Part shown: one piece after another, positions 41,948-46,980 of the stretch | How the letters are laid out: each line of letters starts with the position of its first letter | Position numbering within the stretch: the first letter of the stretch is position 1 | Source of the DNA: Gammaproteobacteria bacterium | GTDB taxonomy: Bacteria > Pseudomonadota > Gammaproteobacteria > Pseudomonadales > Pseudohongiellaceae | Assembly: GCA_002731775.1 (NCBI GenBank) | Contig: PCCP01000059.1 | Location: 14,049 to 78,048 of the forward strand | Reading direction: 5' to 3' | DNA length: 64,000 nt | Position numbers and translations under genes: made by a program | The notes under the pieces: model-generated | Databases searched by the model: none | What the model saw: the letters and a program-made list of their open reading frames with translations, nothing else | What the model was told of the DNA's origin: nothing

Positions 41948-44014
41948 CTAAAACAGATATTGCATCCCCACACCATCTCCATATTCCGAATCGCTGTTTA
42001 GGGTAAACGCCCAGCGCTTGCTCATGTTGTATTTTAGACGGTAGCGATACTCGTTATCCGTGTTCCAGCGCCAGTCAAACCCCAGCCGACGTGTGAATTG
42101 TAGCTCCGACTCCAGTTCTACCCGAAATTCCCCTTCATCATCCACGCGCCACTCGCTATCGATTAATAGCGGCAAGGTGTAATTAAATCCGGCGATGGCA
42201 TAACTAGTGCTGGCTTGTTCCTCATGTTTTCGCCTCTCGACGCCGGCAAAGGTCGAAAAGAAGCTACTGAAATAGTAGGTGTAGGTTGCTTCAATTTCAT
42301 AGCTATCATCGAAGTTTGAGTCCGCCTCCAGTTGGAAGCCGTGGCGCTCATCGGAGAGTGAATAATCCAGATCGAGAAAATTACTCTGGACATCCAGCTT
42401 GCTATGGTTGAACCATCGCAGGTAAGGTTGAATCACCCTGGCCGTATCTGCGTCGTACGTTGACGTCTCCTCATAGCTGATCACTCGGGTCATACCCGTT
42501 TTCATATGATATTGATTGTGACAATGAAATAACCAGTCCTTCTCTTCGTTGGCGTCAAACTCAATCACTACCGTGCCCATGGGCGGCACGTTGACCGTGT
42601 GTTTCAAAGGGCTGCGATCGCCGTGCTGATTCACGACGCGGAAGAAGTGGCCATGCAGGTGCAGTGGATGATGCATCATCGTACTGTTGTACAGAATGAT
42701 GCGTACGTTTTCACCCTTGCGAATTAGTATCTGGTCATCCTCACGCAGGGTTGCGCCATTGAAACTCCAGACGTAGCGTTCCATATTGCCGGACAGCGTC
42801 AGGTCAATCTGCCGCCAGTCTCGCTGGATCGGTAGTACGGTGGAAGCGGTAGCAACCAGGTGCTGATAGTCTGTCATATGGGCTATCACCTCGACCATGG
42901 CAGCTTCCATGCCCTTGTCATCACTCTTAGGCATGGCTTCGGCAGCGCCTTGATGTTCCGGTGTCGTCATCATATCGATGCCCATCGCCATATCACGGGC
43001 TTCCATCAGAAACAGATTCGGCGCCGGCACGTCGGGGGCATATACCCTGTCCCCCGCGCCGACGAAGGTACTGGAAAATCCGCTGCCATCGAAGGACGTG
43101 GCACGTAGCTCAAATGACGCTTCGGCGGATACCCTCACCAATACATCATAGGTTTCCGCGGTAGACATACGCAGGCGCTTGACCCGGATGGGTTCAACAT
43201 CCTGACCATCGGCAGCAATTATTGTCATCGGCCCCCCCGCATATTCGACGTCGAAGTAGCTAGAAGTAGAGCCATTGATCAAGCGCAACAGAATTTGCTC
43301 GGCGTTGATATCGTTAACTATCAGCTTGTTCTCCGACTTCCCATTTGCCAGGAAGCGATCATAGGCGATATCTGCCAGATCCATTGGGCCCATGCGGGTA
43401 AAAGATTGGGAAAACCTATTACGTATTGCCCGACCGCCATTCGCCAGCACCTTGTCCCAGGACTGCACCGAATTTTTCTTGTAGGCGTAATGGTCTTTAT
43501 CCTTCTTCAAATTGCTTAGTACGGAGCCGGGATCCTCATCGGTCCAGTCGGAGAAAAGAACAATTTCATCCTGTATGGAATTCGGTGGCTGATCTTTCTC
43601 TCTCAATATGATTGCCCCGTAAATGCCTCTCTGGACCTGCAAGTCGGAATGGGAGTGATACCAGTAGGTGCCGGTCTGGATAATGGGAAATTCAAAGGTA
43701 AAGCTCTGCCCGGGCGCGATAGGCTGCGTATTGAGAAAGGGAACTCCATCCTGGTCATCGGGCAAGAGCACACCATGCCAATGCACCGACGCAGAAACAT
43801 CCAGTCGATTGTGAAATGTAGCGCGTAACACATCTCCGACCCTGGCTTCTATGGTGGGCGCCGGAATCTGATCGCCGATAGCCAGCGCTTCCACGGTCGT
43901 GCCGGTGAAATTTACCAGCTTGGTATCGATATCAAACTCATATAGGAGCATTTCCCCATAAACGAGAAAGGAATGGGAAAACATTAAAAATGTAAATAGA
44001 ACTCTGGCTAACAC
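41948..44014 (-). CDS. multicopper oxidase fused to an outer-membrane beta-barrel domain
   Basis: 688 residues from a GTG with GAGGAG upstream; the first 20 residues form a signal-like segment. Residues 25-515 are a three-cupredoxin multicopper oxidase of CopA type with all copper ligands: HWHG (78-81), WYHSHSD (119-124), HHPLHLHGH (448-456) and FHCHNQYHMKTGM (496-508, with type 1 Cys498 and Met508). A Met-rich insert (337-349) is typical of copper oxidases. Residues about 540-688 differ: alternating hydrophobic/polar strands such as YEIEATYTYYF, FRVELESELQF, YRYRLKYNMSK and WAFTLNSDSEYG, ending in GMQYLF. A final Phe is the outer-membrane barrel insertion signal, and the repeats resemble CopB. 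It is thus a CopA-CopB-like fusion, probably for copper oxidation or tolerance. Confidence 0.85.
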   Translation of the reverse strand: MLARVLFTFLMFSHSFLVYGEMLLYEFDIDTKLVNFTGTTVEALAIGDQIPAPTIEARVGDVLRATFHNRLDVSASVHWHGVLLPDDQDGVPFLNTQPIAPGQSFTFEFPIIQTGTYWYHSHSDLQVQRGIYGAIILREKDQPPNSIQDEIVLFSDWTDEDPGSVLSNLKKDKDHYAYKKNSVQSWDKVLANGGRAIRNRFSQSFTRMGPMDLADIAYDRFLANGKSENKLIVNDINAEQILLRLINGSTSSYFDVEYAGGPMTIIAADGQDVEPIRVKRLRMSTAETYDVLVRVSAEASFELRATSFDGSGFSSTFVGAGDRVYAPDVPAPNLFLMEARDMAMGIDMMTTPEHQGAAEAMPKSDDKGMEAAMVEVIAHMTDYQHLVATASTVLPIQRDWRQIDLTLSGNMERYVWSFNGATLREDDQILIRKGENVRIILYNSTMMHHPLHLHGHFFRVVNQHGDRSPLKHTVNVPPMGTVVIEFDANEEKDWLFHCHNQYHMKTGMTRVISYEETSTYDADTARVIQPYLRWFNHSKLDVQSNFLDLDYSLSDERHGFQLEADSNFDDSYEIEATYTYYFSSFFSTFAGVERRKHEEQASTSYAIAGFNYTLPLLIDSEWRVDDEGEFRVELESELQFTRRLGFDWRWNTDNEYRYRLKYNMSKRWAFTLNSDSEYGDGVGMQYLF

Positions 44015-44064
44015 GACTCAACTCCTCAAACAGGTTTTCGAGGGTTTGGTAAAACAGGAGTGAG

Positions 44065-44448
44065 TTATGCTGAGGGTGGCTGTAGTAGCAGGTCCAGGGA
44101 AACAGACTGATACAGGTTTACACGTAGTGCTGACTTGTTATCGGATACCGACAAATTCTCGGCGCTGCCGGTCATGGAAAAACCAATTGAGCTGGCACAA
44201 CAAATATCATCGCAGAAGCAATCTTCACCGTCATGAGCTTGCACGGGGTGGTCGCCTGCATTTTCTGCCTGGGCAGCTTGATGCAGGAGCTCTAACGAGG
44301 CGGCCCCGGCATGAGCGGAAATCGAACCGTGACTGCTCGCCACTTCCCCGTGGTCGTGGTCATCATGGCTGGCTGCGTCCCCTGCCAGGCTGCTATTTGC
44401 AAGCACCAGCAAGATGAAAAAACCAATAAGCGTCTTATTTTTGTGCAA
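44065..44448 (-). CDS. small exported His/Cys-rich protein upstream of the copper oxidase
   Basis: 127 residues from a TTG (no ATG or GTG is available in frame after the previous stop; the ribosome site is weak). The signal peptide TLIGFFILLVLANSSLAG is followed by a metal-binding-like stretch SHDDHDHGEVASSHGSISAH, a helix, then a Cys cluster in HDGEDCFCDDICCASSIG. The His/Asp and Cys content suggests binding of Cu or another soft metal in the periplasm. It precedes the multicopper oxidase by 50 bases on the same strand, so it is probably a metallochaperone or sensor-like accessory of that protein. I know of no characterised homologue. Small Cys/His exported proteins with copper loci are known but diverse. 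Confidence 0.7.
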   Translation of the reverse strand: MHKNKTLIGFFILLVLANSSLAGDAASHDDHDHGEVASSHGSISAHAGAASLELLHQAAQAENAGDHPVQAHDGEDCFCDDICCASSIGFSMTGSAENLSVSDNKSALRVNLYQSVSLDLLLQPPSA

Positions 44449-44652
44449 TCGATATTACTTTTGAGACTCGAAGATAAACTCTATGAGAGGGAATTTAACG
44501 TTAGAGCGGCGGGAAATATAGTCTTTTTCCCCATTTATAACAAATCGAGCACTGGTTCAGGCGGAGGCAAGCCCTGATCTACTCCAGCGTTCAGGCAGGA
44601 TTTTCTACGCCCCATTAGGGGCTGAAACCAGACTATTCAATCGCCGCGGCGA

Positions 44653-46980
44653 TTAGATTCTAAAACGCAAGGCCTGGGGAAGCAGACAGTTTTCTTCATT
44701 GCAACATTGCAATTTCAGGACCAGTTCCGCGGTAGCAGACAGCGAATCGGCGGACGATTCTGTGCGTGCCAATTCCATTTTTATGGTGAAACCCTCTTCG
44801 TAGATTGGAGTGTTGCCTGCATCAACATTCAACAGGGCCGCGTTCGCTGGAGGATAATCACAACGGATAACACGCCAATGGGTTTCAGTCTCGGCAAGAT
44901 CTAACTCGATGGCCGCGATCTCACCCCCGGAAGCCCCGGCTGCAGCGATGTGCCAGCCCGATTCGAGGGTCACCACGATTTCAAGGAGGTTCACATTGTC
45001 GGCTGACGACTCAATCTTGGAAATTGCGATTTTCGCCCTGCCACCGTCGATAGTCTGAATTTCCCCGGCACTACCGTTCTGATACAGAGAAATTGCCCTG
45101 AGCATGCCGGGATGACTCATTGGATTGTCGTTGATATGGGCTATGAGGGTCGCGATACACTTGTCTATTTTGCCTTCATAACCGTGCCCCTGGCTCCTCG
45201 CGAGAAGCACGCTGCGCTGCTCTAACATCAACAGACACTGCACGGCGGTGGCGACCGCGGACAGGGTAGCGCCATCGCTGGCATTACGGGATCGAGTTAG
45301 TAGCGGTGCGTCGTGTTGTTCGGGGCTGAGATAGAACCCGCTGTTTTCCTCGTCCCAAAATTCTATCAGGGCCATATCCATGAGTTGTGCCGCCTGCCTC
45401 AGATATTCCCTGTCGTCTGTCACATCGAACAGGGTGATCAGCGCCTGGCAATAATTCGCGTAGTCTTCCAGTTGTCCGGCGATGGACACGGCGTTGTTCA
45501 AATAGATCCGGTGGAGCCGGCCGGCGGCGGCCACATTCCGTTGCCACACCAGAGTGGCAGCCCGCTGCGCCGCCTGCAGCCAGTCTGGCCGCTGTAGCAC
45601 CGGCGCCGCCGTCGCCAGCGTAGTGATCATCGCTCCGGTCCAGGCAACGATGAGCTTGTCATCCCTAAGTGGGTGGACGCGCCGCTCCCGAGCCAGATAA
45701 AGCTTCTCTAGAATCCTATCCAGATGGCTGTCGAAATTATCCTCGCTGCCGCCATCGACTCCACCGTCCTTCTCGAGTTCCAGATGGGACTTCGGCAGGT
45801 TCAGGATATTCGAGCCTTCGAAGTTCCCTGCCTCGGTTACCCCATACAGTTCCACAACAAGTCTCGCCTCGGCGGCGGACAACGCCTGCTTCAGTTCTTC
45901 TATAGTCCAGGTAAAGAATGTGCCCTCCTCTCCTTCGCTGTCGGCGTCGGTGGCGGAATAGAATCCCCCCTCAGGCAACTGCATATCTCGCAGCACATAG
46001 TCGAGGGTCTGCTCGCAGACTCGCCTGAAGAACTTATTGCCGCTGAGTTGATAAGCCTGGAGATAAACCAGTCCCAGCTGCGACTGGTTATAAAGCATTT
46101 TCTCAAAGTGCGGCACCAACCATTGCGCATCCACGCTGTAGCGATGGAAACCCCCAGCCACCTGATCATAGATGCCGCCACGCGCCATGCCGGTAAGTGC
46201 ACGCTCAACAAAACCAAAAACACTGAGGTCGCGGGATCTCCTGACATGATCGAGCATGAGCAGCAGCAGCGGCTCCTGGGGAAATTTTGGCGCACCGGCC
46301 AGGCCGCCATAGGTCGAATCTTCTCTCTCTAAGAGGCCTTTCAGCATATTGTCCAGCAAGTCCGGGCCTAAGGACCCCGCCTCTTTTCTGTCACTCAAGA
46401 TGCGATCTATCGCCTCACTTATCTGGGTCGCCCTGGCCCTCAGTTCGTCGGGTTGCTGCTTCCAGGCGTCGGTAATTTTTTGCAACAGGGCGATAAAAGA
46501 AGCTGCCGGGAAATAGGTGGCACCGAAGAATGGTTTACCATCCGCCAGCAGAAAATTCGACATCGGCCAACCCCCATGCCCTGACATGAGCTGCACTGCG
46601 GTCATATAAATCTCGTCGATATCGGGATACTGTTCCCGATCCATTTTTATGCTGATGAAATCCCTGTTCAGCACCTCGGCGACTTCGACGTTGTCGAAGC
46701 TCTCAACCTCCATCACATGACACCAGTGGCAGGGGGAGTAGCCAATGGATAGGAACACGGGCTTGTCCTCGACTGCGGCGGCCTCGAAGGCGTCGTTGCC
46801 CCAGGCGTACCAATTCACGGGATTGTGAGCGTGTTGCAGGAGATAGGGTGAGTCTTCCAGAATCAGCCGATTGATAAACAAGCCCTTGCCCTGCGCATCC
46901 AGGTGTTCGGTGCGTTTGTCATAGCTGCCCGCCTTTTCGGCTTCAACCTTACGTAACTTGGTCTCGAGAGCATTGGTCAT
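44653..46980 (-). CDS. YyaL/DUF255 thioredoxin-fold protein with DsbD-alpha-like C-terminus
   Basis: 775 residues. The N-terminal DUF255 domain carries [40 protein letters not shown] with redox pair Cys84/Cys87, and [20 protein letters not shown] six-hairpin (alpha/alpha)6 barrel follows, with [20 protein letters not shown] and [12 protein letters not shown], then [12 protein letters not shown]. The last 130 residues or so (about 640-775) form a beta-rich unit ending in [14 protein letters not shown], which resembles the DsbD N-terminal domain or thiol:disulfide interchange modules. No signal peptide is visible. The function of YyaL relatives is unknown. The gene ends 205 bases before the copper genes on the same strand. 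Confidence 0.85.

Follow-up and report, generated by a model that had tools for sequence, protein, structure and literature searches.

We analysed a 64,000-nucleotide stretch of DNA (the window) from contig PCCP01000059.1 of assembly GCA_002731775.1, which belongs to a marine gammaproteobacterium of the family Pseudohongiellaceae. Positions 41948-44448 had been described earlier, from the sequence letters, as a multicopper oxidase fused to an outer-membrane barrel and paired with an exported peptide (the original prediction). The open reading frame, coordinates and motifs of that description match the sequence. The span is two genes, not one. Both lie on the minus strand, 50 nt apart: a small gene, here called the leader, precedes a gene for a CopA-type oxidase that runs on into a predicted barrel of the CopB/PcoB kind (Table 1). 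Pfam, AlphaFold2 and Foldseek support the joining of these two parts, and it is conserved in relatives.

Table 1. Features of the leader and fusion genes in the window
Feature	Position	Strand	Basis
Oxidase-barrel fusion gene, 688 residues, GTG start	41948..44014	-	Open reading frame, Pfam, alignment
Hydrophobic N-terminal export signal, residues 1-21, Sec-like, no twin-arginine motif	43952..44014	-	Inspection and pattern
CopA-type multicopper oxidase domain, residues ~22-515, copper ligands present	42470..43951	-	Profiles, alignment
Insert, residues 331-373, several Met, low model confidence	42896..43024	-	Alignment, AlphaFold2 model
Predicted 12-stranded barrel domain, residues 535-687, PcoB-like, terminal Phe at 688	41954..42412	-	AlphaFold2, Pfam, Foldseek, VIA-align
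Leader gene, 127 residues, TTG start likely but uncertain; Sec-like signal, His-rich, CutF/CopL-like	44065..44448	-	Open reading frame, alignment, profiles
Leader motif CFCDDICC (contains CxxxC)	44197..44220	-	Alignment
Leader C-terminus LDLLLQPPSA and stop; consensus of relatives LDLLLPPPT	44065..44097	-	Alignment
5' arm of predicted stem, straddling the leader stop codon	44056..44071	-	Fold, duplex and matched-pair tests
3' arm of predicted stem: AGGAG ribosome-binding site and GTG start of the fusion	44010..44026	-	Fold, duplex and matched-pair tests
Promoter-like match (9 of 12) upstream of the leader, consensus match only	44515..44543	-	Consensus scan

The oxidase and its barrel

In a Pfam search of the 688-residue product, Cu-oxidase_3, Cu-oxidase and Cu-oxidase_2 cover residues 32-515. 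Searching named genome contigs with the whole protein yields 20 loci, all from metagenome bins. Their labels are gammaproteobacterial, pseudomonadal or plainly proteobacterial, plus one SAR86 and one alphaproteobacterial label. Nineteen close members, the window among them, share a common architecture. In a full-length alignment of 19 proteins (window included; the partial L020 and L021 of the 20 loci are excluded), the ligand histidines of HWHG, WYHSH, HHPLHLHGH and HCH, the ligand cysteine and the axial methionine are invariant, with the one exception of His503, which is absent in L013. Domains, motif check and alignment thus bear out a CopA-like oxidase with complete copper ligands at residues 25-515. 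The TIGR01480 (CopA/PcoA) score of the fusion is 388.6 bits, below the curated cut-off of 478.95. GTG is the start codon in 17 of the 19 close members (starts chosen by us), and the bases just 5' of it, in the region 44010-44026, look much alike by eye among them. The insert in the oxidase domain has a longer counterpart, rich in Met and His, in many relatives.

The C-terminal region is predicted to form 12 strands. AlphaFold2, run on an alignment of 20 members, models it with a mean predicted local distance difference test (pLDDT) score of 88.3; the full-length model, with a moderate mean pLDDT of 72.3, has 12 strands there too. The last residue is Phe or Tyr in 19/19 aligned proteins. The best match in the PDB is E. 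coli PcoB (7pge, Foldseek E 7.0e-7; next match 1.1e-4), and VIA-align superimposes the region on PcoB with a Z of 16.1, at 3.1 Å over 153 residues. Structure prediction therefore supports the claim that residues ~540-688 are an outer-membrane barrel ending in a terminal Phe, and gives no sign of anything other than a closed barrel. The sequence HHH occurs in the loop between barrel strands 5 and 6 in 9 of 20 aligned tails (window residues ~596-602, where it reads KHEEQAS); judged from strand order, this loop should face the cell exterior.

Several results weigh against a close tie between this barrel and CopB. OmpLA, with a Z of 15.3, ties with PcoB under VIA-align's own rule, so family membership cannot be read from the fold alone. 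The Pfam CopB profile (PF05275) matches residues 565-653 of the whole protein with E 5.8e-5 and 23.2 bits, below the cut-off of 27. When the C-terminal region is searched by itself, as the original prediction proposed, it does match CopB, with E 4.7e-6 and 26.8 bits, still below that cut-off. An hhalign comparison of the fused-barrel and CopB alignments is too weak alone (E 0.0018, probability 14.7), and a search of PDB sequences with the barrel profile gives no credible chain. In favour of a tie, PF05275 matches 8/20 fused tails, with a best E of 2.8e-6, and both the fused-barrel and the CopB profiles recognise two unfused barrels, one in L093 and one in L105. By sequence, kinship of the fused barrel to CopB appears weak but present.

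Alternatively, the barrel may be an anchor only, which holds a membrane-tethered oxidase and contains no copper channel. The distance from CopB in sequence, a length of ~150 residues against the 208 positions of PF05275, and a fit to OmpLA nearly as good as that to PcoB all suit this alternative. However, Foldseek and Pfam rank PcoB/CopB first, and PcoB conducts Cu2+ in liposomes, according to passages of PMC9210255. We regard a mere anchor as rather unlikely and prefer a barrel through which copper may pass.

The fusion recurs. In sampled genomes, the barrel profile matches 7/369 of the class, 7/390 of the order and 4/398 of the phylum, where each count includes the window's genome and the phylum count repeats one genome of the order count. 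The matches lie in open frames of 664-820 codons that include the oxidase, except for two stand-alone barrels in G135 and one frame of 1691 codons. The long frame encloses the fused frame of L091 (G316:C141). The stand-alone relatives are L104 (G135:C4, 220 codons) and L105 (G135:C21, 126 codons), neither of which has an oxidase frame within the stretches read. The CopB family profile has matches in 80/194 genomes of the order, 79 of them above cut-off; the sole match below it is the window's fused barrel, the only match in that genome. On plasmids, the barrel alone matches 21 records (in 14 the match spans 80% or more of its length), all under genes annotated as multicopper oxidases, in Bacteroidota and Ilyobacter polytropus (Fusobacteriota). 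On the plasmid pILYOP02 of Ilyobacter polytropus (L079), which is typed as conjugative, the neighbourhood of the fused gene includes a two-component system, heavy-metal sensors (by annotation) and another multicopper oxidase. Distant fused members come from other Gammaproteobacteria, an alphaproteobacterial bin, Bacteroidota and one fusobacterium. An assembly or annotation artefact that joins two genes would be conceivable given that all 20 whole-protein loci are from metagenome bins. Yet the same architecture, free of stops, is found in independent assemblies, in the single-contig genome G522 and in complete plasmid records, and we consider the chance of an artefact negligible.

Export route and descent

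A barrel that is inserted by the barrel assembly machinery (BAM) must cross the inner membrane unfolded. Therefore the fusion predicts export by the general secretory (Sec) route. We applied the same patterns for the twin-arginine translocation (Tat) route to fused and unfused CopA-type frames. The strict pattern is found in 0/33 fused and 49/60 unfused frames, the looser one in 1/33 (L017) and 52/60, and any RR in the stretch read in 5/33 and 54/60. Fisher tests give p 4.8e-16 (strict) and 2.6e-16 (looser), values that are indicative only, since the rows are related. Starts are uncertain in several distant fused frames. The unfused set consists of 64 loci read, minus L092 (fused), L133 and L136 (truncated) and L135 (no frame). 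An initial count, with Tat patterns in 30/30 unfused CopA, was dropped because it was biased to the top scorers of a model that contains the Tat signal; lower scorers were added.

Two points weigh against the contrast: the five fused frames that do have some RR, and the eight of 60 unfused CopA without even the looser pattern. Sec export is therefore not a peculiarity of the fusion, nor is it proven. The near-absence of Tat patterns in fused proteins fits Sec export; it is consistent with that route, not proof of it. A separate CueO-like oxidase in the same genome (L002) has a start that looks twin-arginine by eye.

In a 63-row tree of the oxidase domain, 31 fused and 30 unfused rows are separated by a branch with 100/100 support (two CueO-like rows aside). 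A second tree takes in 27 fused rows (the long branch L090 and near copies are left out), 16 of the 52 Tat-like and all eight other unfused rows, and five CueO-like rows, and thus adds Sec-like unfused CopA and more CueO-like outgroups. Here the 24 unfused rows group with a support of 81/100, and the fused rows form a clade or a grade; a single fused clade is not rejected (approximately unbiased test, p 0.427). The trees thus fit either direction, fusion or splitting. L093 (G394:C46) has a Sec-like unfused CopA beside the CopB that matches both barrel profiles. This locus sits basally within the unfused group and is a candidate link between split and fused forms.

One could imagine that the single chain is an old, self-contained machine for oxidising copper and passing it on, and that it predates PcoA/PcoB. 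The pair would then have arisen by splitting, after which the oxidase would have moved from Sec to Tat and the barrel would have acquired a flexible docking tail that took over from the covalent link; in the window's lineage, synthesis would be switched by a nascent copper-sensing leader. We offer this history as speculation and think it improbable.

The leader and the predicted RNA stem

The 127-residue upstream frame with its HDDHDH and CFCDDICC motifs is real: a leader frame is conserved in 17 of the 19 close loci, and none was found upstream of the other two, L011 and L022. Sixteen aligned leaders share a hydrophobic start, His residues, the Cys motif and the C-terminal end. CxxxC is present in 15/16 (C79-C83 in the window), and L019 has lost the second half of the Cys motif. 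All 16 have PP in the last 15 residues and a Leu-rich stretch near the stop. Five end exactly in LDLLLPPPT, the window and L004 in LDLLLQPPSA, and the remainder in close variants. These features are kept although the window leader is only 24-41% identical to 14 of its 15 aligned relatives.

Many of the set resemble known leader families: CopL_fam in 12/16 leaders (best E 6.9e-5) and DUF2946 in 4/16 (best E 8.2e-4). Against it stands the window leader's own score, below the cut-offs in both cases (CopL_fam 21.2 vs 40 bits, DUF2946 16.2 vs 23.7 bits). We also took the filters for CutF-like leaders from section 10 of PMC9973294. The window leader is shorter than 150 residues, has a signal peptide (judged by inspection) and PP in its last 15 residues, and is followed by a gene on the same strand. 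Four of ten distant fused loci that were fetched (L083, L085, L086, L089) have a small frame close upstream that contains CxxC or CxxxC and has Pro pairs towards its end; a fifth, L082, has a small frame with scattered Cys and one Pro pair. End motifs differ there (for example HPPNSPNA and SPPPRT), and distances at the distant loci are approximate.

In the RNA fold of the window, AGGAG and the fusion's GTG start are base-paired to the region around the leader stop codon. The following tests exclude L011 and L022 (no leader) and the near copies of the window, L003 and L004, although L004 was kept in the shuffle test. Compared with dinucleotide shuffles, the duplex energies summed over 16 loci are low (Stouffer z -4.28), and start-region pairing in context is weaker in sum (z 2.13). 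In the best duplexes at least three ribosome-binding-site bases are paired in 16/16 loci and at least two start-codon bases in 12/16, with the bases differing among loci. The duplex search favours such pairing; the evidence is the matched test. Stop arms paired with the ribosome-binding-site arm of their own locus average -14.4 kcal/mol against -12.2 kcal/mol for mismatched pairs (p 0.0006, 15 loci, best of three segments), and p is 0.0001 when two near relatives are removed. Of the other two segments, the longer gives p 0.031 and the leader coding end alone p 0.30. The latter value led us to drop the Leu/Pro codons as the arm that pairs with the ribosome-binding site.

Sliding the segments served as a control. 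For the 5' segment p is 0.001-0.002 where the stop codon is covered, and 0.13-0.92 from -120 to -30, at 0 and at +10. For the 3' segment p is 0.0012 at the ribosome-binding site, 0.029 at an overlapping position and at least 0.17 elsewhere. Hence the RNA around the stop codon co-varies with the downstream ribosome-binding site.

A number of points count against the stem. The whole-region fold of the window is not exceptional (z -0.84). Taken alone, just 6/16 loci have p < 0.05 against shuffles, among them the window (0.037) and its near copy, and L006, L008 and L012 go the opposite way. 5' segments at +20 and +30 also give p 0.004-0.005, though they overlap the other arm. The three segments of the matched test were chosen after reading the sequences and the loci are related, so that the p-values are indicative. 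Rfam has no match within 43900-44700.

What does the small protein do? The original prediction took it for a His/Cys-rich exported peptide that delivers copper. The first part stands: it is a His/Cys-rich protein with a Sec-like signal. It may be a periplasmic copper carrier or sponge that feeds the oxidase in a plain operon, with the fusion as described above; its body is His-rich, it has a CxCxxxCC motif, and CutF itself was initially taken for a chaperone (in the part of PMC8456105 that deals with it). A carrier has no obvious place for the Leu-rich stretch and PP kept just before the stop or for the co-variation of the stop-codon RNA with the next ribosome-binding site, and CutF is needed in cis and undetectable in cells, as passages of PMC9973294 report. 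We consider a carrier unlikely. Because of the conserved Leu/Pro-rich end at the stop and the pairing of the stop region with the oxidase ribosome-binding site, the peptide is better read as a CutF/CopL-like regulatory leader.

Regulation need not involve copper, however. In ordinary translational coupling the stem would tie oxidase output to translation of the leader, with no sensing or stalling and a minor role for the leader protein. The predicted arm overlaps the window leader's stop, so any terminating ribosome would open the stem, and the start is GTG in most close members. Coupling alone needs no protein motifs, yet the leader motifs persist at the low identities given above. We give coupling by itself little credence and return to a leader that probably switches on production of the fusion.

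Relatives of the window's neighbour genes, which we take to be a Sir2-type deacylase, an alpha/beta hydrolase, a PdxJ-like protein and a DUF255 protein, lie within ~6 kb at 11 or 12 of 16 leader-fusion loci that were selected for having the leader. Leader and fusion look like an inherited chromosomal unit rather than a resistance island.

A putative copper-defence unit and known systems

We favour, with moderate confidence, a two-gene copper-defence unit: a Sec-exported oxidase-barrel chain in the outer membrane, and a leader that senses copper while nascent and gates translation of the chain. The fusion product would be exported unfolded as a single chain via Sec, and its C-terminal 12-stranded barrel would insert in the outer membrane. 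The barrel would hold the CopA-type Cu(I) oxidase at its periplasmic mouth, so that Cu(II) is made beside the pore, a covalent version of the PcoA/PcoB partnership. The small exported leader may sense copper during its own synthesis. Copper on its CxxxC would hold the ribosome at the Leu/Pro-rich end, and the held ribosome would melt the RNA stem that hides the ribosome-binding site and start codon of the oxidase. Outer-membrane location, copper flux and its direction, stalling and copper gating are what this model predicts.

How PcoA and PcoB cooperate, and whether PcoB carries copper in or out, is disputed. A natural fusion fixes oxidase and barrel at one to one, with the predicted active site beside the pore. 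A single purified chain could therefore reveal whether copper is oxidised and passed on in a coupled way. The fusion also suggests that Sec exports the oxidase before it folds, and that its copper is acquired outside the cytoplasm. Copper sensing by an exported protein during its synthesis would gain, in the leader, a second and compact model from a different bacterial class.

That CopA and CopB are separate in known systems, as the original prediction had it, is not upheld. Fused PcoA-PcoB was mentioned for five Legionella species in 2012 (in a passage of PMC3548706), and a PcoB-like porin region on an oxidase of Bizionia argentinensis in 2024 (in a passage of PMC11213822). Like ours, these have an oxidase and a PcoB or PcoB-like porin region in one chain; we liken them by description, not by sequence. 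The passages mention the fusion in passing and contain no analysis of fold, export route or leader. Exact fusion phrases returned no paper and broader searches returned these passages. Nor did we find a paper on the fold of the fusion, its spread over three phyla, the absence of Tat or the pairing with a CutF-like leader, in a search that ran outside supplementary tables, of which those of PMC9973294 may list a leader-plus-fusion pair. Hence the fusion itself is already in print in passing, and what is added here is its spread, fold, export route and leader.

The fusion shares multicopper oxidase domains and copper ligands with PcoA/CopA (TIGR01480), but it falls below that family's cut-off, has no Tat pattern and carries a C-terminal barrel. 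With PcoB/CopB (PF05275; 7pge) it shares the predicted 12-stranded barrel, for which PcoB is the best solved match, and the profile matches in some of the tails. It differs in a shorter barrel, below cut-off in the window, and in the linker: ~20 residues lie between the oxidase end and strand 1, with no His-rich stretch in the window copy, whereas PcoB has a long, His-rich, disordered N-terminal region. PcoB's own features are Cu2+ conduction and the acidic pore pairs D97-E207 and E130-E223. Passages of PMC9210255 describe PcoB as a 12-stranded barrel with both ends periplasmic, a topology that fits an oxidase preceding the barrel. According to part of PMC12509749, PcoA needs PcoB for its stability, and docking has been proposed.

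The closest parallel to the leader is CutF-CutO of Rhodobacter capsulatus, as described in parts of PMC9973294 and PMC8456105; CopL and CruR are kin of such leaders. In response to copper, CutF is reported to open a stem that covers the CutO ribosome-binding site and so to raise CutO translation (in passages of PMC9973294), and the related CruR acts in the opposite sense (in part of PMC9426467). Both loci have a small exported leader with CxxxC and a proline-rich C-terminus, a short gap, and a stem, predicted in our case, over the ribosome-binding site of a multicopper oxidase gene. In contrast to CutO, our oxidase has a Sec-like signal and continues into a predicted barrel. The leader here lies below the DUF2946 and CopL cut-offs, and it ends in a sequence like LDLLLPPPT where the CutF passages give PEPEGPPPRL.

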